This document shows, one piece after another, positions 2,813-41,085 of a DNA stretch of 47,672 bases. This stretch comes from Bacillota bacterium (lineage in GTDB: Bacteria; Sysuimicrobiota; Sysuimicrobiia; Sysuimicrobiales; Segetimicrobiaceae). The translations under genes were made by a program, and so were the position numbers. The stretch covers positions 1 through 47,672 of the forward strand of contig JAJPIA010000033.1 in the NCBI GenBank assembly GCA_021324975.1, in the 5' to 3' direction. The stretch's first letter is position 1. Each line of letters begins with the position of its first letter. The notes under the pieces are model-generated. The model saw nothing but the letters and a program-made list of their open reading frames with translations. It searched no databases and was not told where the DNA came from.

Positions 2813-4108
2813 ATGAGCCGCTCGGGAACGATCCGATCTGCCGTACTCCGCAACATCATCATCATCGTGGTCGCGATGCTCCTGGCGCCGTCGCCGGGGA
2901 GAGCGCAGCCGGCCACCGGCGCCTCCTCGTCGACCTCGGGCGGCGTCAGCGTGCCCGCAGGGGTCCACGGCGCGGGCACGGCGGCGGCCATCAGCGACTA
3001 TCTCCTCGGTCCCGGGGACGTGGTCAGCGTTTCCGTCTGGGGCTATCCGGACATGACGACCGAGATCGCGATTCGTCCCGACGGCAAGCTCACCCTGCCG
3101 CTGATCGGGTCCGTGCCCGCGGCCGGCGTCACCGTCGACGCGCTGACGAGCGCCCTCACGAAGGCCTACGCAGAGTACATCATCGATCCCCAGGTCACGG
3201 TGCTGATCAAACAGTACCGGAAGCTCACCGTGTCCGTCCTCGGGCAGGTGCAGCATCCCGGCGTGTACGAGCTGCCGGCCGGCGCCCGGGTCCTCAACGC
3301 CATCGCCGCGGCCGGCGGTTTGACGGAGGCCGCGGCGACCGAGGGCGTGCCGCTCATGCAGGCTGGCCGGCCCGCGTTCCAGATCGATCTGGCGCGGGCG
3401 CTCAAGGGCGACGAGAGCGCCAACGTGGCGCTCGGCGGCGGCGAGACGATCGTGGTCCCCGAGGACCTCGTCCACGTCATCAACGTGCAGGGCCAGATCG
3501 TTCGGCCCGGGCAGCTGCGCATGAAGGGCCCGATGCGCGTGCTCGATGCGCTGCTGCAGGCAGGCGGCCTCACGGACCACGCATCGCTCACCCAGGCGAC
3601 CCTCGTTCATGCGTCGGGGCAGAGCGAGCCGTTGGCGCTGGACAGCCTTCTCCTCCACCAAGACATGAGCGCGAACGTGCCTCTTCAACCCGGCGACAGC
3701 ATTTTCATTCCGGAAGAGACAAACAACAAGGTCTATGTTCTGGGGGACGTGCGCAATCCGGGCGTCTACCCGGTGCAGGCCCCGATCTCGCTCCTCCAGG
3801 CGCTTGCGCTTGCCGGCGGCCCGGAACAGCGCGGCATCGGAACGGCGAAGCAGGTCTACGTGCTGCGGCGCCCCGGCGTCTCCGAGAACATCGAGGCCGG
3901 CCCTGCCTCGCTGCAGCCACTTCCGAACGGCGGAACGATGCTCGCCGCGAACCTGCGGGAGCTGATGAAAAACCCCGCCCGCGGCGTCACGGTCCAGCCC
4001 GGCGACGTCATCGTGGTGCCGCAGACCGGCGTCGGCGGGCTCCAGGTGGTCGTCAACATCCTGGCCGGCCTCGCGAGCGTCTTCTACAATTTCAGGCCGC
4101 TCCCCTGA
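2813..4108 (+). CDS. Polysaccharide export protein, Wza-like, with three SLBB domains
   Basis: A 431-residue protein. It has a Sec signal peptide (basic start, hydrophobic core about 14-27, likely cut after GRA), but no lipobox Cys, unlike E. coli Wza. A Poly_export domain spans about 60-135 (DYLLGPGDVVSVSVWGYPDM). Three SLBB beta-grasp units start near residues 137 (VLGQVQHPGVYELPAG), 222 (VQGQIVRPGQLRMKG) and 306 (VLGDVRNPGVYPVQ). The family forms the outer-membrane or periplasmic exit channel for capsule and exopolysaccharide and docks on the Wzc-like partner encoded 14 bases downstream. GGAGGT stands 4 bases before the ATG. This gene opens the tightly packed biosynthetic run. The lack of a lipid anchor suggests a different attachment to the outer membrane or use of a partner. 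Confidence 0.93.
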   Translation: MSRSGTIRSAVLRNIIIIVVAMLLAPSPGRAQPATGASSSTSGGVSVPAGVHGAGTAAAISDYLLGPGDVVSVSVWGYPDMTTEIAIRPDGKLTLPLIGSVPAAGVTVDALTSALTKAYAEYIIDPQVTVLIKQYRKLTVSVLGQVQHPGVYELPAGARVLNAIAAAGGLTEAAATEGVPLMQAGRPAFQIDLARALKGDESANVALGGGETIVVPEDLVHVINVQGQIVRPGQLRMKGPMRVLDALLQAGGLTDHASLTQATLVHASGQSEPLALDSLLLHQDMSANVPLQPGDSIFIPEETNNKVYVLGDVRNPGVYPVQAPISLLQALALAGGPEQRGIGTAKQVYVLRRPGVSENIEAGPASLQPLPNGGTMLAANLRELMKNPARGVTVQPGDVIVVPQTGVGGLQVVVNILAGLASVFYNFRPLP

Positions 4109-4122
4109 CCCCGGAGGGCGCG

Positions 4123-6429
4123 ATGATGCGATACGAGATGCGATTTCGCGACGTGCTCGACATACTGCATCGGCGACGAGGGGGCATCGTCCGCGTCTTT
4201 GCGGTCTGCACCGCACTCGGGCTCGTCGCCTCGTTTGGTATGCGGCCGGTGTACCGAGCGTCTGCCCTCATTACGTCCGATAAAACGCCGCCGGTCGTGG
4301 TGCTCGACCAGCCGGGCTATGCGGGGCCCGGCGGCCCGCCGCCCGTGGGGGTGGACGGACTCGATGTGCCCACATTGGTGGCGTTGGTCAAGAGCGACGC
4401 CACGCGGACGCGCGCGCGGAAGATCCTCGCCCGCACCCTCGGCCCCCGGCGGGCAGACGACGCGCTCAAGGGGCTGCGGGCGCAGCCGCTCTGGGACACG
4501 CAGCTCGTCCGCGTCTCCGTCGAGCATGCCAATCGGCAGGTCGCCGCGGCCGCGGCGAACGCGGTCGCGGCCGCCTTGATCGATGTCGACGCCCGGTCGC
4601 GGAGGCAATGGGCGACGGGACTCCGCCGCTCGATTCAGCGGCAGCTCGCGGACAGCGATCCGAAGCTGCGCGCCGCCGAGGACGCGCTCGTGGCGTTTCG
4701 ATCCCAGCACGGCCAGGTTCCGCTGTCCGGCCAGACGGACCAGACCACAAACGAACTGGCCCAGATGGAGGCGCAGCGCGTTGAGGTCGGATTGCAACAG
4801 CAAGAGGTCCGGGCCCGCATCGACGCGGCGCGCAGCCGTCTCGCGCAGCAGGCCCGTATTTCCCCCACGGAGTGGCGGCCGAGTCCGTTGATCTCGACGC
4901 TGCAGACCCAGCTCGCCACCGAGGAGATCGAGCTATCCGGGCTGCAGCGCCAATTCACACCCAAGCATCCGGCGCTGCTCAACGTCGAGGCCAAGATCGA
5001 GGAGACCAAACGCCGTCTCGACGCCGAGCTCGCCAATAGCCTAGAGATCGACCAGTACGGGGTGGATCCGACCTACCAGCAACTCATGCAGCAGCTGCGG
5101 CAGGACGAGGTCGCCAGCGCGGCCTTTACGGCGCGTGATCAGGCCCTGCAGGCGTCGATCGCGGAGGCCGAAGGCCGCATCGAATCGCTGCCGGCGGCAG
5201 AAGTCGCCCAAGCGCGGCTCGCCCGCGACGCAAAAGAAGCTGAGGAAATCCATCAGATCCTCACCGAGAAGCTGCAGCAGGCGATGGTCGCGGAAAGCTC
5301 GATCGGCAGCGTCGTTCGCATCGTGGACGGCGCGGTTCCACCCCACGGACCGGTGCGGTCTCGCTGGCTCGGCCTGTTGTTCGGGGCCGTCCTCGGGGGG
5401 CTGTTCGGCCTGGGCGGGGCGCTCGTTCGAGAGCACGTCAGCAACCCGATCAAGTCAGTGGACCACGCGCAGCGCCTCGTGAGCGCGCCCGTGCTCGGCG
5501 CGGTCCCACGCCTCGGAGGAGCGCGCGGTCGCCTTGGCAACGACGGCACCGCGGCGCCGCCTCCGGTGACGAGCTCGCGGTGGTCGTTCCTCCCCGGCCG
5601 GGGACGCCCGGCGGCGCGGATGCGGCTCGCAGGGCAGTGGCGCGCGGCATTCGCCGAGTCGTTCAAATACTTGGGCGCAAACGTCCATGCCGCCGAGACG
5701 ACCCAGCGCGGACGGGACGGCCGTGCGGCACGCACGTTGCTCGTGACAAGCCCCGGCGTCGGGGAAGGCACCGCGATGGTGGCGGCAAATCTGGCGGTCG
5801 CGTTGGCGCAGGGTGGCCAGCGCGTCATGCTCGTCGAGTGTGACATGCGACGCCCCGAACTGGCCCGCGCGTGGGCGCTCCGCGACTGCGAGCACGAGGC
5901 CTCGGAGGGACTGGCCAATGTGCTCGCCGGGGACCGCCAGGAGCACGAAGTCCTGCATCGCACCGCGGTGCGGAACCTGTGGTTCCTGCCGGCCGGGAAG
6001 CTGCCGGGGTATGCGTCGGATCTGCTCGGCAGCCAGCGGATGCGGGAGTTCCTCACTCAGGATCGAGCGCACGCCGACGTGGTCGTCCTCGCGGGAGCCC
6101 CTCTCCTCCCCGTCCCGGACGCAACCGTCCTTGCGGGCGTGGTGGATGGCACGCTCCTCGTCCTGGCCATCGGTACGACGCCCTGTGAAGCCGCCGCGAA
6201 AGCGTGCGCGCAACTCGCCACCGCCGGCGCCTGCCTGCTGGGCACGGTCGTCACCGGTGTGCCGACGGGCGGGATCGGAGCCTACAGCAACTACTACGCG
6301 GGCTACTACGACGATGACCCCGGCACCGCATGGTACGTCCGCCCGGCCGTCACGCGCGTCGCCGTGCCGCCACGCGCCCATGCCGAGGTCGCTCCGGTGC
6401 CTTCCGCGCCTCGCGCGACCGGAGCGTAG
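4123..6429 (+). CDS. Wzc-like polysaccharide co-polymerase with degenerate tyrosine-kinase domain
   Basis: A 768-residue protein. A Wzz-type chain-length domain has transmembrane helices near 26-44 and 405-430 with a long periplasmic coiled coil (about 165-390) between them. A cytoplasmic CpsD/BY-kinase-like domain follows (about 505-715). The kinase signatures are eroded: the Walker A loop reads GVGEGTAM (545-552), with Thr550 where Lys is expected; the A-prime motif is VECDMRRP (571-578), with Glu for the first Asp; Walker B is VVVLAGAP (653-660), without Asp. Yet a Tyr-rich tail, YSNYYAGYYDDD then AWY (721-738), of the kind normally autophosphorylated, is present. GGAGGG precedes the ATG. 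It probably sets chain length and links the Wzy polymerase to the export channel, but may no longer bind ATP. Confidence 0.9.
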   Translation: MMRYEMRFRDVLDILHRRRGGIVRVFAVCTALGLVASFGMRPVYRASALITSDKTPPVVVLDQPGYAGPGGPPPVGVDGLDVPTLVALVKSDATRTRARKILARTLGPRRADDALKGLRAQPLWDTQLVRVSVEHANRQVAAAAANAVAAALIDVDARSRRQWATGLRRSIQRQLADSDPKLRAAEDALVAFRSQHGQVPLSGQTDQTTNELAQMEAQRVEVGLQQQEVRARIDAARSRLAQQARISPTEWRPSPLISTLQTQLATEEIELSGLQRQFTPKHPALLNVEAKIEETKRRLDAELANSLEIDQYGVDPTYQQLMQQLRQDEVASAAFTARDQALQASIAEAEGRIESLPAAEVAQARLARDAKEAEEIHQILTEKLQQAMVAESSIGSVVRIVDGAVPPHGPVRSRWLGLLFGAVLGGLFGLGGALVREHVSNPIKSVDHAQRLVSAPVLGAVPRLGGARGRLGNDGTAAPPPVTSSRWSFLPGRGRPAARMRLAGQWRAAFAESFKYLGANVHAAETTQRGRDGRAARTLLVTSPGVGEGTAMVAANLAVALAQGGQRVMLVECDMRRPELARAWALRDCEHEASEGLANVLAGDRQEHEVLHRTAVRNLWFLPAGKLPGYASDLLGSQRMREFLTQDRAHADVVVLAGAPLLPVPDATVLAGVVDGTLLVLAIGTTPCEAAAKACAQLATAGACLLGTVVTGVPTGGIGAYSNYYAGYYDDDPGTAWYVRPAVTRVAVPPRAHAEVAPVPSAPRATGA

Positions 6430-6431
6430 CC

Positions 6432-7952
6432 GTGGCGGTGGGTCGCCTGACGCACGATACGCTTGCCGGCCTGGTGTGGTCCTTCCTGGGCGGGGGCGCA
6501 CGGGGCATCGGACAACTGGTGATCCTGGCGATTTTTGCCCGGGTTCTCACCGTCCAGGACTTCGGGATCGTGACGGTCGTGGTCGTCGTCGTGGGGCTCG
6601 CGTCGAACATCGCGAGTTTCGGCATCGCACCCGCGGTCGTGCAGTTGCCCGGGCTGCGGGCCGCGCACGTCCGGGTCGCGTTCACCGCATCGTTTCTGGT
6701 CGGGCTCGTGCTCGTCGGCCTGTTGTGGTCCATCGCACCCGGCCTCGGGTGGTATTTCCGCCTCGCGGGGCTCCCTCCGCTGCTCCGTGCCCTTGCGTGG
6801 CTCTGCCCGCTGCAGGGTGTGGCCGCCGTCGCCGAGGCGCTGCTGCAGCGTGCAATGCGCTTTCGGACGCTCGCGGGCGTAGACACCGCCGCGTGCCTGG
6901 GCGCATTTGGGACGACCGGGGTCGCCTTGGCGCTCGCCGGCTTCGGCGTGTGGGCACTCGTGTGGGCCTACCTGGCGCAGGCCGCGGTCAGGGCCGCCCT
7001 GCTCCTGGCACTCCAGGCGCGCCCGATGCCGTTTGCGCCCCTGCTCGAACGTGGACCGTTTCGCGACCTGGCCTGGTTCGGCGGCGGGTTCGTCATTGCC
7101 AAACTCTTGAACTACCTGGCCACGGAGGGCGACAACGTCGTGGTGGGAAGGGGCATGGGCGCGGAGGCCGTCGGGTTGTACGGCCGCGCCTACCAGCTGA
7201 TGGCGATGCCGGCCATGTTCATCGGCGAGATTCTGGACAAGGTTCTGTATCCCGGGATGGCCCGCGTCCAGCACGACGTGGAGCGGCTGGGGGTTGCCTA
7301 TACGCGCGCCGTAGGCCTGATCGCCCTGATCGTATTGCCCGTAAGCGCCGTGCTCGTTGTCACCGCGCCGGAGGTCGTTCGCCTGCTGCTCGGACCGAAG
7401 TGGACGGGCGTCGTCGCCCCGTTTCAAATTTTCGCAGCCGGTATGCTGCTGCGAACGAGCTACAAGATCAGCGACGCAATGGTCCGGGCCAAGGGGGCCG
7501 TGTATCGCCGCGCCTGGCGTCAGGCCGTTTACGCGCTGTGCGTGCTCGCGGCCGCCTGGATCGGACAGCGGTGGGGCCTTTCGGGCGTCGCGCTCGGGGT
7601 GACCGGGGCGATCGCCGTCAACTACGTCCTCATGGCCCATCTCAGCCTGAATCTCACGCGCCTGTCCTGGATGGCATTTTGGAGGGCGCATCTGCCGGGC
7701 CTCTGTCTCGGAGGCGTCGTAGGCATCGAGAGCGTGGCGGTCGTGGGAGCGCTCAGGAATTGGGGCACGCCGCCGGCGCTCACGGTGGCCGGCGCGGGTG
7801 TCCTCGTGCTCGTGAGCCTGCCGCTCTTGTTGTGGTGGGCACCGGATCCGTTTCTCGGCCGCGACGGGTCGTGGATGATGCGCGCGCTCGCGCCGTATCT
7901 CCCCGCCAGGTTCGGAAGCGCCGGCTGGGTTCGGCGGCTCTGCGCGAGGTGA
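6432..7952 (+). CDS. Polysaccharide flippase, Wzx/TuaB-like (MOP superfamily)
   Basis: A 506-residue integral membrane protein with about 12-14 hydrophobic helices and no soluble domain. It resembles the Polysacc_synt (WzxC/TuaB) branch, with VGLYGRAYQLMAMP in the middle and LLGPKW before a late helix, both typical of that group. These proteins flip undecaprenyl-diphosphate-linked repeat units across the inner membrane. I chose GTG 6432, two bases after the preceding stop codon, with GGAGCG just upstream; a longer in-frame start inside the previous gene would add a non-hydrophobic Arg-rich leader. Its place between the co-polymerase and the polymerase fits a Wzx/Wzy-dependent pathway. Confidence 0.9.
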   Translation: MAVGRLTHDTLAGLVWSFLGGGARGIGQLVILAIFARVLTVQDFGIVTVVVVVVGLASNIASFGIAPAVVQLPGLRAAHVRVAFTASFLVGLVLVGLLWSIAPGLGWYFRLAGLPPLLRALAWLCPLQGVAAVAEALLQRAMRFRTLAGVDTAACLGAFGTTGVALALAGFGVWALVWAYLAQAAVRAALLLALQARPMPFAPLLERGPFRDLAWFGGGFVIAKLLNYLATEGDNVVVGRGMGAEAVGLYGRAYQLMAMPAMFIGEILDKVLYPGMARVQHDVERLGVAYTRAVGLIALIVLPVSAVLVVTAPEVVRLLLGPKWTGVVAPFQIFAAGMLLRTSYKISDAMVRAKGAVYRRAWRQAVYALCVLAAAWIGQRWGLSGVALGVTGAIAVNYVLMAHLSLNLTRLSWMAFWRAHLPGLCLGGVVGIESVAVVGALRNWGTPPALTVAGAGVLVLVSLPLLLWWAPDPFLGRDGSWMMRALAPYLPARFGSAGWVRRLCAR

Positions 7953-7958
7953 CGGAGG

Positions 7959-8738
7959 ATGCGACGCAGTGTCGGCGACGGGGCATCGGAGGGGGTGGTG
8001 CGGCGGCCGCTCGTCGTGGAATTCGCAGGACTTCCAGGCGCAGGCAAGACGACGCTGGCCGGCCGCGTCGCCGGGCTGCTCCGCGAACAAGGGGTTCCGG
8101 CCGACGAGCCGCTGCTGGCGTTCTCCGGGCGCTTTTGGGGACGGAGAACACCGCGCGCGCTGATGCATCTGTTCAGGCGCCCGGCTGCGGCGTGCCGCGC
8201 GCTCGGCGCGATCGGGCGGAGCGGGCAGCGGACGGGGCGCGACGCGGCATGTTTGGCCCATACCTGGCTGTTTTTGCACACGCTGATGGGCGAGTGCCGG
8301 CGCTCCGGGCGGATCGCACTGTTCGACCAGGGCATCATCCAGGCGTTGTGGTCCGTCGCGCTGAACGCGCGCCATGACGCGCTGCCCACGTTCCTTGCGG
8401 CCGTTCGCGAGACCATGTGCCGCCCCGACGTGGTGGTAGTGGTCGACGTGCACCCTGATGTCGCGGCGCGCCGGCTGCGGACGCGGCCCTATGGGCGGTC
8501 GCGCCTGGAGCGCGGACCGTGGAACCCCTGGCTCTTCGAGCGCGGTGTCGCGGTCTGGCGGAGGCTCGAGCCGTTGATTGCGACGCTTTGCGCCGATGTC
8601 ATGGTCGTGCCGAACGATCGCGGGGACGTTGTGGACGAGAGCGTGCGGCGATTGGCGGGGTGGATTACCGGAGGCGCCCCGGCGGCCGGCGTCCCCGCGC
8701 CGCCCGGCATCACGCCGGGTGCGAGGTCCATCGGATGA
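7959..8738 (+). CDS. P-loop kinase-like protein of the polysaccharide locus
   Basis: A 259-residue protein with a clear Walker A loop, GLPGAGKTT (residues 24-32), after a beta strand VVEFA. A later LFDQGIIQALWS segment and the strand VVVVVDVHPDVAARRL resemble the thymidylate/adenylylsulfate-kinase fold, with a lid-like Arg-rich stretch after it. The substrate is unknown; family members in capsule loci are often only described as thymidylate-kinase-like. The upstream stop region contains AGGTGA (7947-7952), which serves as ribosome binding site 6 bases before the ATG; GTG at 7995 is an alternative start. Its stop overlaps the next gene's ATG (ATGA). It may phosphorylate a sugar or act as a nucleotide-dependent assembly factor. 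Confidence 0.75.
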   Translation: MRRSVGDGASEGVVRRPLVVEFAGLPGAGKTTLAGRVAGLLREQGVPADEPLLAFSGRFWGRRTPRALMHLFRRPAAACRALGAIGRSGQRTGRDAACLAHTWLFLHTLMGECRRSGRIALFDQGIIQALWSVALNARHDALPTFLAAVRETMCRPDVVVVVDVHPDVAARRLRTRPYGRSRLERGPWNPWLFERGVAVWRRLEPLIATLCADVMVVPNDRGDVVDESVRRLAGWITGGAPAAGVPAPPGITPGARSIG

Positions 8739-10060
8739 ACGTCGCGGCCGCCACCGCCGGTCGACCCGATGCGCGGCCAATGCCCGATCGCTTCGGCATG
8801 CGGGACGCGCTCATCGTCGCCCTCGCCCTCGCCTATCCCTTCCACTACTACGTCGAGGGCCTGGGCGGCATCGTGAACGTCAGCGCGGGTGACATCCTCG
8901 TCGCCGCGACCGTCGCCGCCTTCTGCGCCAACCTGCTTGTGGGCCGCTGGACCGCGCCGTGCTACCTGACCCAAGTGGCCGTCTTCGCCCTTGTGGCCCT
9001 CGTCTCGCTCGTCCCACCGTGGCTGCAGTTCTCGGCCTCGCCCGCGTTTTTCGATCCCGTACCGGGCCTCGCGGAGATCGTGAAGCTCTTCGGCAGCGCC
9101 GCGTGGATGGTCGCCGTGTACGTCCTCCTCCGACCGGATCCGCGACGGGGAATCCAGTTGTTCGCGGCATCGTCGGTGCTGGTGGCCGCCGTCTTTTCGG
9201 TGATCTCCATCGATATCGCGCTCCAGCATCCCGGGGTCCGTCAAGCGGGGCCATTCGAGAACGAAAACCAGTACGCCAATTACCTGGCCCTGAGCGTGTT
9301 CCTCGCGTTGATACTGTTCCGGCGCGGTGACTCTCCGGAATCGAGCGCCTCGCTACTTCCGCGGCTGGTTGTCCCTCTGCTGCTCGTGGCGATCCTGGCC
9401 ACCGGCTCGCGCGGCGGGGTGCTGAGTTTTGCGGCCGCGCTGCCGTTTGCCGTGGATTGGCGCGCGCTGGCCCGCGGTGTGGGACGCCACACGCTCGGCG
9501 TGGTGGCGGCAGCCGGCCTGTGCATCGGCGGCCTCACCGCCTTCTGGCAGGCCAACCCGCTCATCGCGCAGCGTCTGACAACCGTTGCCTCAGGACAGGG
9601 CCCCAACATCCAATCCCGAGAGTACCTGTCGCAGATGGGGTTCGACGCTCTGTTCTCGTCGCCGATCATCGGGATCGGGTATCATCAATTCCCTCAATAC
9701 GCAGAGACGCTCTACGGGTGGAAGTCCCAGGTCGTGCACGACACCTACATCGAGACCGGGGCCGAGCTGGGCATCGCCGGAATGCTCGCGTACGGGTGGT
9801 TGCTCGTCAGTGTCTTCCGCGACGCCGTCCGGTTTTCGCGGGATCCCGAGTTCGGCGCGGCCCGCCTCATCATCGCGATCATGGTGGCGACGCTGGTGCA
9901 GGGCCTCTTCGATGACATCGAGCACGACCGCTCATTGTGGATCTCGTTCGGCATGCTGGCAGCGATCGGCTACGCCCTCGAGGCGCGGCGTGGGGGATCC
10001 ACGGACCCATCCCTCCCCGTGCCCGCCGGGCGCGCCGATGCGCTCGGCTTCCGCCCGTAG
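8735..10060 (+). CDS. O-antigen polymerase/ligase family protein (Wzy/WaaL-like)
   Basis: A 441-residue multi-pass membrane protein with about 10-12 hydrophobic segments. The Wzy_C signature region is present: ATGSRGG near residue 225, then a large external loop containing IGIGYHQF and VHDTYIETGAELGI (about 315-350), with the conserved His and Glu-Leu-Gly typical of O-antigen ligases and Wzy polymerases. It would polymerise lipid-linked repeat units on the outer face of the inner membrane, or ligate the finished chain to an acceptor; sequence alone does not separate these. The flippase and chain-length genes just upstream favour Wzy polymerase. The start overlaps the preceding gene by 4 bases. 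Confidence 0.88.
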   Translation: MNVAAATAGRPDARPMPDRFGMRDALIVALALAYPFHYYVEGLGGIVNVSAGDILVAATVAAFCANLLVGRWTAPCYLTQVAVFALVALVSLVPPWLQFSASPAFFDPVPGLAEIVKLFGSAAWMVAVYVLLRPDPRRGIQLFAASSVLVAAVFSVISIDIALQHPGVRQAGPFENENQYANYLALSVFLALILFRRGDSPESSASLLPRLVVPLLLVAILATGSRGGVLSFAAALPFAVDWRALARGVGRHTLGVVAAAGLCIGGLTAFWQANPLIAQRLTTVASGQGPNIQSREYLSQMGFDALFSSPIIGIGYHQFPQYAETLYGWKSQVVHDTYIETGAELGIAGMLAYGWLLVSVFRDAVRFSRDPEFGAARLIIAIMVATLVQGLFDDIEHDRSLWISFGMLAAIGYALEARRGGSTDPSLPVPAGRADALGFRP

Positions 10061-14048: not shown

Positions 14049-15029
14049 ATGCGCGGATGGCTCCGAGCGGGAATCGCAGCGACCGTGATCGCGCTGGCCG
14101 GCACCGCGCCGCGCACATTCGTACCAGGCAGCGCGGGCTCCGCGCCGCCTGTCGTGGCCGTCCACGCGAACACGCTCGGCGGCAAGTACGTGTTCGTCTC
14201 CCGCCGCTGGGACCTGGCCAGGATTCGGGAAGCGTTCAACACCGTGATCGTGGCGTCTGTGCCGGACGGCGGCGACCTGCAACTGGTTCGGGATGCCGCG
14301 GCCGCCGGCCTGCGCGTGTACGTGGAGTTCGACAAGAAGCGCGAGTACGCCGAGGGCCGGGACATCTCGCCTACCGTGGCGGCCGTCGTGGACGAGGCCC
14401 GAGCGGTGCCCGGCCTCATCAGCGGGATCCGGGTGGCGGATCGCCTGAACGAATTCTTGGATCCAGACACGAGCCTCGGCTACCTGCGCGCGACCGGGGG
14501 CGTCTTTCATCGGGAGATTCCCGGCATCCCGGTGCTCGTGGACGCGAACGACTGGGAGCTCACGTGCGGGTATTCAGGGCAGTCGTCCTGCACCGACCAC
14601 CTCCAAGACCGGTTCCGCTTCGAGCGCAACGACGTCCTCGAGCTCCTCTATCGATCCGGCTACGTCGACGGATTCTTGCTGTCGGACAACATCAAGAATT
14701 TCGACGTGGACGTGCAGGCGGCGGCCTGGCGCCGGGCGCGCGCCATGTACCCGCGGCCGTTCCTGTTGTTCTCGGCGTCACCCGAGCTCTCGTTTCCGGA
14801 CCCGGCGTACCCGTCCGATCCGGCGACGGCGCGCCGAGAGGTCGACGCGATCGTGCGGACGCCGCTGGCGCTCGGCGCGGACGGCGTCGACATCTGGGCG
14901 TGGCACCGGCCGTGGGATCACACGCTGCGCACGATCTTGAACAAGGACGGCGCGCCCAATGCCCTGTGGACGTCCCTAGTCGAAATCGCGAGCCCGCTAC
15001 TCCACCTCGCCCCGGCGCCAACCCGATGA
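14049..15029 (+). CDS. Secreted TIM-barrel-like protein, putative glycoside hydrolase
   Basis: A 326-residue protein with a Sec signal peptide (residues 1 to about 22). The rest alternates beta strands and helices, as in a TIM barrel: FNTVIVASVPDGG, LRVYVEFDKKREYA, GIRVADRLNEF, IPVLVDANDWEL, GFLLSDNIKNF and the ending DGVDIWAWHRPWDHT. Asp/Glu-containing strand ends (EFDKK, DANDWE, SDN) would be candidate catalytic acids, but I cannot assign a family. AGGTGA from the preceding stop region acts as ribosome binding site. It sits beside a deacetylase in a polysaccharide locus, as hydrolases that trim polymer in the periplasm often do. A decayed paralogous fragment lies at 45127-45310. Confidence 0.75.
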   Translation: MRGWLRAGIAATVIALAGTAPRTFVPGSAGSAPPVVAVHANTLGGKYVFVSRRWDLARIREAFNTVIVASVPDGGDLQLVRDAAAAGLRVYVEFDKKREYAEGRDISPTVAAVVDEARAVPGLISGIRVADRLNEFLDPDTSLGYLRATGGVFHREIPGIPVLVDANDWELTCGYSGQSSCTDHLQDRFRFERNDVLELLYRSGYVDGFLLSDNIKNFDVDVQAAAWRRARAMYPRPFLLFSASPELSFPDPAYPSDPATARREVDAIVRTPLALGADGVDIWAWHRPWDHTLRTILNKDGAPNALWTSLVEIASPLLHLAPAPTR

Positions 15030-16727: not shown

Positions 16728-18248
16728 ATGGTCGCGGCTCTCGCCACAGACCATCCCGCGGCGGACGAGCTCGAACCGCTTCGTGTGATCCTCGCCTCGC
16801 TGAACAGGGCAAACGTTCCCTATTGCCATTGGAAGAGCAACCACACGCTGGACGAGTCGCTGCGCGGCGCGGTCGATCTCGATCTGCTGGTCGACGAGCG
16901 ATATGCGCGCGGCGTGGCCGCCGCAGCGCAGGATGCGGGGGCCAAAGCGTTCCGCGCTCCTGCCGCGTTGACGTACCCCGGCGTCGACCACTGGCTGGGA
17001 TACGACGCGCGCACAGGCATGCTGGCGCACGTGCATCTCTACCGAAAGCTGGTCACGGGCGCCGGTCGCTTGAAGGCGTACGAGTTCCCGTGGGCCGATA
17101 CGGTCCTCTCCACGCGGCGGTTCGCGCGCGCGCACGACGTGTACGTGGCGGACCCCTCCGTCGAGTGGCTCCTCTTCAGCGTCCGGGCCATGTCGAATCT
17201 GCGCGCGCGTGAACGGCTGCAGGCAAGATTCGGGCTGGGGAAGCTTCCGGCGAAACTGCGCACGGAGCACGAATGGCTCGCCGTTCGCGCCCGGGAGCAC
17301 GACGTACACCGCCTCGCGACGCGGCTCCTCGGACGTGATATCGCCCCGGGAATGACCTCGTTGTTCCGGTCCATGTCGTTGCGTTCGCTTGCGGCGCTCA
17401 GATCCCCGGTGCTTCGGCGGCTTCGACCCTACCGGCGCTACACGGTGCTCGGCGAGTTGTGGCACGGGCCCCTGAAGGATGCGTGCTGGGCCTGGTGGAC
17501 GGTCGGCCGTCGCTATCTAGGCCGTCCCGCGCCACCCCTGCTCGCGCGCCCGGGCGACGGCGTCGTGGTCGCGCTCGTGGGGCCCGACGGGTGCGGCAAG
17601 TCGACGGTCGCCAAGATGCTCTACGCGTGGCTGTCGGAACACCTGAACGCCGTGTCCATCTACTTCGGGACGGGTGACGGCCCCGTCTCCTGGCTTCGGT
17701 GGCCGCTGCGGACGGCGCTCGGGCTGAGGAATCGCTGGCGGCGCCACCTCGAACAATCCGCCCATGCCGAGTCCCGTGCGGACGCCGCGGCCGGCTTTTG
17801 GGAAACGTGCGGCCGAACGTGCTGGGCGGTCGCCGTCAGCTACGAAAAGCGCTGTCGCCTCCGCCGGGCCCATGATGCGCGCGCGCGAGGGCTTGTCGTG
17901 ATCTGCGACAGGTTTCCGCAAAGCCAATTTCCGGGGCTCATGGACGCCCCGCTGCTGCAGCGGTGGCTTACGCACCGCGTCCCCGCGTTGCGGGCGCTGG
18001 CCCGGTGGGAGCGCGCTCCATACGAGTGGGCGGAGCGTCACCCGCCGGACGTCGTGATCCGCCTGCACGCTTCCCGCAACGTCGTGCTGCGCCGGAAGCC
18101 GACGACCGCCGATGACGCCGAACGGCGCATCGCGGTCGCGCGGTCACTCAACTACGGCCGGGCGGCCCGTGTCGTGGACGTGGATGCCGACGCGCCGCTC
18201 GGCGACGTCGTCGCTCGGGTCAGACGCATCGTGTGGGACGCATTGTAA
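16728..18248 (+). CDS. Nucleotidyltransferase-like/thymidylate-kinase-like fusion
   Basis: A 506-residue protein. The N-terminal part (about 20-170) resembles a nucleotidyltransferase-fold domain: YCHWKSNHTL, then GAVDLDLLVD with its Asp-x-Asp pair. A helical middle region (170-270) follows. The C-terminal part is a P-loop kinase with Walker A GPDGCGKST (285-293), a VVICDRFPQSQFPG segment (DR-x as in thymidylate kinases) and a late VVIRLHAS strand. Fusions of this type occur in exopolysaccharide loci with unknown function. GGGAGG sits 6 bases before the ATG. It is the second kinase-like gene in the cluster, after 7959. A sugar-activating role (phosphorylation plus nucleotidyl transfer) is conceivable but not shown. 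Confidence 0.75.
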   Translation: MVAALATDHPAADELEPLRVILASLNRANVPYCHWKSNHTLDESLRGAVDLDLLVDERYARGVAAAAQDAGAKAFRAPAALTYPGVDHWLGYDARTGMLAHVHLYRKLVTGAGRLKAYEFPWADTVLSTRRFARAHDVYVADPSVEWLLFSVRAMSNLRARERLQARFGLGKLPAKLRTEHEWLAVRAREHDVHRLATRLLGRDIAPGMTSLFRSMSLRSLAALRSPVLRRLRPYRRYTVLGELWHGPLKDACWAWWTVGRRYLGRPAPPLLARPGDGVVVALVGPDGCGKSTVAKMLYAWLSEHLNAVSIYFGTGDGPVSWLRWPLRTALGLRNRWRRHLEQSAHAESRADAAAGFWETCGRTCWAVAVSYEKRCRLRRAHDARARGLVVICDRFPQSQFPGLMDAPLLQRWLTHRVPALRALARWERAPYEWAERHPPDVVIRLHASRNVVLRRKPTTADDAERRIAVARSLNYGRAARVVDVDADAPLGDVVARVRRIVWDAL

Positions 18249-39833: not shown

Positions 39834-40706
39834 TTAGTGGTGACCCTGACTGCTCCCACCACCATTGCCACCAGCGTTACCGTTTCCGGCATTACCATTC
39901 CCACCGGCATTACCATTCCCACCGGCATTGCCGTTCCCTCCGGCGTTGCTGTTCCCTCCGGCGTTGCCATTGCCAGCGCCGTTGCCGTTGCCCGCACCAT
40001 TGCCGCCCCCACTGTTGCCGTTCCCGTTCCCGCCACCGGCGCCATTGCCGTTTCCAGCACCGTTGCCACTCCCATTGCCACCACCGTTTGCACCGCCGTT
40101 CCCGTGCCCAGAGTTGCCATTGCCGTTTCCATTGCTATTGCCGTGTCCGTTGTTATTGCCCTGCCCGGTGCCCGACGCCTGGGCTTGTACTTCCTTTTCG
40201 TTGTGTGCTGCTTGGCTGACCAGATCGCCCACCGATACGCCCGACGGTAACGTCCCGTCTGCCTTCATCGCCGCGGCCGCGTGAGCGACCGTCGACACCC
40301 ACGCCCCGGGATTCGAAAGCGTAGTGGCGAGAACCCCGACGGTCGGTGTCGACACGTTCAAAGACAGCGACGTCCCCGTCACGTTGGCAAACACACCCGT
40401 GGCCGAGGTGATCTGCAGCGAGCAGTCCCCTACAGAACACGAATACGTGCCACTCAACTGTCCAAACTGCGGGCTGAGCCCCGTGACCGTCTCGGCAAAC
40501 GTGCCTGCGGTCGACGTGCCCGTCATTGACAGGGTCGTAGACAGCCCGCCGAGCGTCCCGGTCGTCGTCGTCGTGGCGCCCCCGGAGGGGAGGTTAAGCC
40601 CGTTGAACTCGACCGCGAGCGACTGATTCGGCGGAGCCGCCCACCCGGGAAGAGCTACAGCAAAACCGATCATGCAGAGCATGAGCACGCTGGCGAACCA
40701 ACGCAT
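39834..40706 (-). CDS. Secreted Gly/Asn-repeat protein
   Basis: A 290-residue protein. It has a clear Sec signal peptide (MRWFASVLMLCMIGFAVALP, cut near GWAA). A beta-rich, Thr/Ser-rich domain (about 25-140) contains one close Cys pair (CSVGDC) that could form a disulfide. A short helix (about 150-180) precedes a tail of about 105 residues made almost only of Gly, Asn and Ala in GNGNAGG-type repeats, ending QGHH. The DNA of the tail has an 18-base period. I chose ATG 40706 because AAGGAGG lies about 10 bases upstream and the signal peptide starts there. Function unknown; a surface, matrix or spore-coat-like structural protein is possible. Confidence 0.85.
   Translation of the reverse strand: MRWFASVLMLCMIGFAVALPGWAAPPNQSLAVEFNGLNLPSGGATTTTTGTLGGLSTTLSMTGTSTAGTFAETVTGLSPQFGQLSGTYSCSVGDCSLQITSATGVFANVTGTSLSLNVSTPTVGVLATTLSNPGAWVSTVAHAAAAMKADGTLPSGVSVGDLVSQAAHNEKEVQAQASGTGQGNNNGHGNSNGNGNGNSGHGNGGANGGGNGSGNGAGNGNGAGGGNGNGNSGGGNGAGNGNGAGNGNAGGNSNAGGNGNAGGNGNAGGNGNAGNGNAGGNGGGSSQGHH
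39840..40160 (-). repeat. In-frame 18-bp-period coding repeats
   Basis: This stretch encodes the GN/GNA/GG tail of the secreted protein. The clearest copies, near 39885-39945, repeat every 18 bases (six codons, GNAGGN-like). Copy number is likely to vary by slippage between strains. It is coding sequence, not a CRISPR array. Confidence 0.75.
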
Positions 40707-41085
40707 TATCTTCTGCCCTCCTTTATGACGGCGCCTCGATGGTCCCAACTCTGCACCGTGATCCGTCACCTATGTGTGCGCACAACGCCGTTTCGTGGCG
40801 CGCAGAGGCCACTCAAACTCTGCTAATGGTCGTTTGATCCCCAAATGCAATCCCTCTGATCTGCGCCTGTTCCAAACGCTTCTCCGAAACGGCACAACGG
40901 CTTAGTAGCATGCTGCGACATCGGGGATGCCACGACGCTCCTGCGTTGGGAAGTCTCCGATGCCCGGCCTGGCCCAAGCACCGGACGGCTGCGCTACGGT
41001 CTTAGAACCAACTAATGCCGCCTCAGGATTTGCGAGGAAGATTGACCTCCCGAGGGTCCGTGCCGGCTCGCAACGCGTTCAGCGA
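40707..41085. other. Intergenic stretch without a recognised gene
   Basis: It holds the promoter region of the Gly/Asn-rich gene. A 10-bp palindrome TGTGCGCACA (40775-40784) lies about 70 bases before its start and could be an operator. No coding region is seen. Confidence 0.4.

Follow-up and report, generated by a model that had tools for sequence, protein, structure and literature searches.

We describe a Wzc-type polysaccharide co-polymerase from an uncultured bacterium that is, as a BY pseudokinase joined to a co-polymerase and ending in a tyrosine tail, a new combination, the known BY pseudokinases EcpK and PssP2 being tailless. Alignments and structure models show a kept BY-kinase fold that has lost its ATP- and Mg-binding residues, followed by a YY-x2-YY tail lacking YxY. 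We see about an even chance that this protein is a natural analogue of the kinase-dead E. coli Wzc K540M, with its tail serving as an unphosphorylated clasp between subunits.

A Wzc-type co-polymerase in a polysaccharide locus

The window, i.e. the whole stretch of 47,672 nucleotides that was analysed, carries an export and polymerization locus in which the 768-aa protein studied here is read from an ATG at 4123 to a stop codon at 6429 on the + strand, without an internal stop:

2813–4108 (+): Wza/OPX polysaccharide export protein, directly upstream of the co-polymerase (Pfam Poly_export 87 bits, SLBB)
4123–6429 (+): PCP-2a (Wzc-type) polysaccharide co-polymerase with BY-pseudokinase domain, 768 aa (ORF; GNVR; phmmer to Wzc structures)
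6432–7952 (+): Wzx-type flippase (Pfam Polysacc_synt_3 229.6 bits)
7959–8738 (+): P-loop protein 1, thymidylate-kinase/AAA_33-like, not a BY-kinase (weak profile matches)
8732–10060 (+): Wzy/O-antigen-ligase-type polymerase (Pfam Wzy_C 61 bits)
16728–18248 (+): P-loop protein 2, weak AAA/thymidylate-kinase match, not a BY-kinase

Pfam GNVR matched the co-polymerase above its cut-off (36.7 versus 27.7 bits) and Wzz (PF02706) below it (18.4 versus 25.5); the NCBIfam eps_transp_fam and Wzc models matched with scores under their cut-offs. NCBIfam TIGR01007 (cut-off 108.05 bits) reached 104.4 on the protein itself; searched across the genome, the same model gave 107.9, or 108.2 when neighbours were included. 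With phmmer, Wzc structures were matched at 1e-24, and BceF and CapAB structures were also found in sequence searches. The models divide the chain as follows:

4177–4239 (+): first transmembrane helix, residues 19–39 (AlphaFold2 model; sequence hydrophobic)
5365–5442 (+): second transmembrane helix, residues 415–440 (AlphaFold2 model)
5647–6273 (+): BY-kinase-fold domain, residues 509–717, apparently catalytically dead (AlphaFold2, Foldseek)

In the AlphaFold2 model, the BY-kinase core is Rossmann-like and confident (pLDDT mostly >90), and the tail is of low confidence. Foldseek placed CapAB (E 3.7e-17), the Wzc kinase domain (E 2.8e-16) and BceF among the best fold matches of the kinase domain. 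The full-length model (pTM 0.48) has a long helical periplasmic part between the two membrane helices, and, ranked by E-value, full-length Wzc chains head its Foldseek matches, but superposition of the whole chains is poor (TM 0.30), as may be expected when domains are flexibly linked and the pTM is of this size. PCP-2a genes lie with those for Wza (OPX), Wzx and Wzy, as is the case here, and their products combine in one chain two transmembrane helices around a periplasmic helical domain with a C-terminal BY-kinase fold, an architecture that the models reproduce. The window protein is a PCP-2a co-polymerase.

Two further products of the window deserve mention. A 326-aa protein in the polysaccharide locus (14049–15029) has a signal-peptide-like start and gave no match in Pfam and NCBIfam searches, and a 311-aa secreted-looking protein (39834–40769, − strand) ends at its C-terminus in a long Gly/Asn repeat, GNGNGAGGGNGN.

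Walker motifs lost in a domain still under constraint

In Wzc, the positions K540, T541 and D642 serve phosphate and Mg binding. The corresponding motifs of the window protein are:

5749–5778 (+): lost Walker A SPGVGEGTAM, residues 543–552, with T550 for Lys and A551 for Ser/Thr (alignments)
5824–5850 (+): Walker A′ VMLVECDMR, with E572, a Glu found clade-wide, and with D574 and R576 kept (alignments)
6079–6111 (+): lost Walker B VVVLAGAPLLP, with A657 for Asp; tyrosine-pocket P660-L661-L662 kept (alignments; pocket per PMC11986026)

Aligned to the solved Wzc, T550 falls on K540, D574 on D564 and A657 on D642, in stretches free of gaps, and A551 occupies the position of the Mg-binding T541. 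Both the GK[ST] of Walker A and the Walker B Asp that mark active BY-kinases are therefore missing, as the earlier note had read for Thr550 and for Walker B, and the replacement of Ser/Thr by A551 adds to the loss. K540 and D642 are structural partners in Wzc (PMC8517177); their equivalents here have been lost together. Moreover, the Lys, Ser/Thr and Asp positions are Q, D and L in the ortholog from genome G006 (GPWEGQDV and LLAPP) and T, A and A, matching the window, in that from G011 (GDGGTTAA and VAAPP). Because two orthologs from other genomes have lost the same residues, a sequencing error is unlikely. The prediction that the domain no longer binds ATP or acts as an autokinase is thus well supported by sequence, and the domain fits the description of a BY pseudokinase, a BY-kinase fold without Walker motifs, as known from EcpK, HfsB and PssP2.

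The Walker A′ motif, DxDxR in BY-kinases, reads E572-C-D574-M-R576. The earlier note had listed this Glu among the lesions; it is indeed present, but we reject it as a sign of a dead kinase, since alignment A1 has Glu at the first A′ position in each of its seven Walker-intact relatives, as well as in G006. The second Asp and the Arg (Wzc D564 and R566) are identical in all ten aligned proteins.

By genome kinship, G006 and G011 belong to the same bacterial family as the window, and named relatives include Ca. Segetimicrobium genomatis (phylum Ca. Sysuimicrobiota); the window probably comes from this family. The three dead proteins form one clade in trees of the full-length protein, the PCP part and the BY part (supports 99–100), with the Walker-intact tailed kinases falling outside it each time. 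Identity between the window protein and its G006 ortholog is 51% in the PCP part, 55% in the kinase domain and 38% over the eight Walker A residues; for the PCP part and the kinase domain, respectively, it is 58% and 48% between the window and G011, and 49% and 47% between G006 and G011. Ratios of PCP to kinase identity are broadly similar in Walker-intact pairs. Since the BY domain is conserved like the PCP part while Walker A is not, these comparisons suggest a domain still under constraint, which does not look like a decaying remnant.

As a separate observation, the dead clade adjoins different Walker-intact relatives (L009, L010, L041, L046) in the PCP-part and kinase-part trees (AU p 0.09), a difference that might reflect domain exchange. 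L046 (G010:C111) itself, whose Walker A reads EGKST and whose tail has YxY, is spread over three frames and is either a frameshifted gene or the result of assembly errors.

The tyrosine tail and its candidate docking site

Beyond the Walker motifs, three elements bear on the tail and on oligomer formation:

5656–5676 (+): degraded EX2RX2R oligomer-interface motif, E512, K515, G518 (alignment; motif role PMC3795738)
6187–6189 (+): E689, which likely corresponds to the tyrosine-pocket residue E675 of Wzc (hand-matched, one residue off the printed alignment)
6283–6336 (+): C-terminal tyrosine cluster YSNYYAGYYDDDPGTAWY, YY-x2-YY, no YxY (sequence, alignment)

Residues 719–742 hold six Tyr, as against seven in the preceding 718 residues (P about 3e-5 for the stretch and about 0.02 when corrected for a protein-wide scan, with the locus mean of 2.6% Tyr as background). 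The C-terminal Tyr cluster of BY-kinases is thus retained in a pseudokinase, unlike in EcpK and PssP2, which have no Tyr-rich C-terminus. Between the window and G006 tails (AYSNYYAGYYDDDPG versus SFDRYYSSYYEAEPA), four of six Tyr are kept, but just 4 of the 21 remaining positions; with two sequences to compare, the test is weak (one-sided P 0.04). The contig of G011 ends short of the full tail, so that two tails are visible in the clade.

In E. coli Wzc, the tail passes through the active site of the neighbouring subunit with its i−2 Tyr in the tyrosine pocket, a ratchet built on YxY (PMC11986026). YxY is present in 134 of 138 intact tails of our survey and in the eight other tailed dead domains, and is absent from the window and G006, whose related tails count as one event in a comparison conceived after that report. 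The earlier note had called the tyrosine cluster intact; the cluster is real, but its register has changed. The P-x-L pattern of the pocket (Wzc P645–L647) is kept in all ten aligned proteins, and E689, probably the equivalent of Wzc E675 as judged from the alignment, stands at a position that is E or D in all ten. The residues that dock the unphosphorylated Tyr in E. coli Wzc are therefore retained. EX2RX2R, an oligomer-interface motif (PMC3795738), reads EKG in the window protein versus ERR in all nine relatives, G006 and G011 included.

A survey of 186 distinct BY domains relates tail to Walker state. At least four Tyr in 20 tail residues were found in 138 of 152 Walker-intact and in 10 of 34 dead domains (Fisher P 5e-13, kinship ignored), in a non-random sample of window-protein homologs, the window's phylum and genomes chosen for strong or weak TIGR01007 matches. 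When kinship is controlled for, the tree holds 10 Walker-state changes, with only two independent pairs on well-supported branches, too few for a comparison. In the survey Walker state and tail mostly go together, yet they are not always lost together, which would have told against the earlier note. The window protein has the highest tail Tyr count among the 34 dead domains, and it and G006 are the only members of the survey set to have lost both Lys and Asp yet kept the cluster; the remaining tailed dead domains retain the Walker B Asp.

Two other patterns were also seen. L050 and L071 (Armatimonadota records) combine a Lys-less Walker A, GQGGTTT, with the tail DSYYYHSHYYP, which includes YxY, a separate loss with the tail kept. 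L015, L032, L144 and L159, from the same phylum as the window, are Lys-less BY-kinase-like proteins in separate frames of 228–274 aa without a tail, and are closer to the EcpK pattern.

Clasp, relic or substrate of another kinase

The octamer of kinase-dead Wzc K540M is kept together by unphosphorylated tails that dock in the active sites of neighbours (PMC8285477), and EcpK is a precedent for a phosphorylation-independent PCP-2 (PMC12004946). Since the losses of the window protein include and exceed that of K540M, and since it keeps the docking residues and the tail Tyr, we infer by analogy a phosphorylation-free ring with a clasp. The protein would form a ring like that of Wzc K540M, and each unphosphorylated tail would dock in the adjacent subunit, at its tyrosine pocket and former active site, acting as a fixed or binding-controlled clasp in place of the phosphorylation ratchet. 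Chain length and export would then depend on how the ring assembles with Wza and Wzy, and no cycle of Tyr phosphorylation would be involved. More tentatively, and at somewhat worse than an even chance, the protein may be a naturally evolved phosphorylation-free Wzc, its ring held by unphosphorylated Tyr tails in the dead active sites of neighbours, in a lineage apparently without an active BY-kinase.

Several points stand against the clasp. EX2RX2R is degraded in the window protein, though G006 and G011 retain it; CapA1B1 in its inactive form does not make octamers and has a disordered Y-cluster (PMC3795738); and the tail was modelled with low confidence, with two clade tails visible. E. coli needs the phosphorylation cycle, normal capsule production failing when its Wzc is kinase-null (PMC11986026), so that a permanent octamer alone would be insufficient in that species.

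A less likely alternative is that the pseudokinase domain acts as a scaffold, as in EcpK, and that the tail is a decaying relic without a role of its own. The YxY register is already gone in both observed clade tails, 24 of the 34 dead survey domains have fewer than four tail Tyr, the three orthologs have diverged from one another in Walker A, and the degraded EX2RX2R of the window protein fits this reading too. What a relic explains poorly is the conservation of four Tyr positions between orthologs only about 50% identical, the retention of the tail-docking residues and a Tyr count above that of every other dead domain.

The earlier note had left two options, a tail that works without phosphorylation, which fits the data better, and phosphorylation by another kinase, such as one of the P-loop proteins of the locus. 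That the tail is phosphorylated in trans, with length control still based on phosphorylation, we regard as improbable. Hanks-type kinases and a low-molecular-weight tyrosine-phosphatase-like protein are encoded in the window genome, and a separate Walker-intact BY-kinase with a Tyr tail is carried by G011 (G011:C447), G008 and G010. Profile searches of the window genome (96% complete), on which our genome-wide statements rest, found no Walker-intact BY-kinase, returning ParA-, Mrp-, ArsA- and CpaE-like proteins and a second Lys-less PCP-2a; that such a gene was missed is possible but unlikely, and searches of G006 likewise found none. The two BY-kinase-like domains of the window genome, in the window protein and at C116:30160–32133, both lack the Lys. 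This result, the weak resemblance of the locus P-loop proteins to small-molecule kinases rather than to BY-kinases and the missing YxY ratchet spacing lower the support for another kinase. Least probable by far is a domain that retains nucleotide binding or has activity at an unusual site: the second A′ Asp and Arg and the BY-kinase fold are kept, but Lys, Mg-binding Ser/Thr and Walker B Asp are lost in all three orthologs, and the P-loop contains no basic residue.

The protein at C116:30160–32133 (L038/L173 in genome G000; Walker A PQPRSGTSTVV, Tyr cluster kept) represents a second PCP-2a type in the family, together with L025, L028, L029, L037, L132, L139, L145 and L160. These proteins have Thr or Ser for the Walker A Lys (GTSTV), often Ala for the second A′ Asp, a kept Walker B Asp and a Tyr cluster, VDSYYYQEYFYR. 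In most of them the chain continues past the cluster into an additional hydrophobic stretch at the C-terminus.

Set beside known systems, the window protein as a PCP-2a pseudokinase with a candidate clasp is most like Wzc K540M (PDB 7nhr; PMC8285477), a two-TM co-polymerase with a BY-kinase fold, a Tyr tail and no Walker A Lys, and it keeps the tyrosine-pocket and D564 equivalents of E. coli Wzc. Unlike K540M, it is natural rather than engineered, has also lost the Walker B Asp, and combines a degraded EX2RX2R with the lack of YxY. EcpK of Myxococcus xanthus, which works with the PCP EpsV, likewise has a BY-kinase fold that lacks Walker motifs and likewise serves a Wzx/Wzy co-polymerase (PMC12004946), but it is a separate protein without a Tyr tail, whereas here the pseudokinase is joined and tailed. 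PssP2 (PMC4182512) unites co-polymerase and pseudokinase in a single chain, but lacks both the C-terminal Y-cluster and the Walker motifs; further single-chain PCP-2 pseudokinases, SMc01795, Mlr8439 and VV1_2305, are named in PMC12004946. The Walker-intact PCP-2a relatives from the same phylum (L011–L014, L019, L020, L041) share the domain order and a YY-rich tail, e.g. GYYHYAGYYDTE in L014, and most have E in A′; unlike the window protein, they have the Walker A Lys, the Walker B Asp and YxY.

In the accepted model, Wzc-type machines require cycles of tail phosphorylation. A lineage without ATP binding and ratchet spacing, but with the tail Tyr and their pocket, would allow what the tail does structurally to be told apart from its phosphorylation, making the window protein a natural test of tail function. 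The phosphorylation-independent PCP-2 group, proposed on the basis of EcpK, gains in it a member that has a tail and is a single chain, and its features suggest that the co-polymerase of this uncultured bacterium is a version of the machine that runs without phosphorylation.
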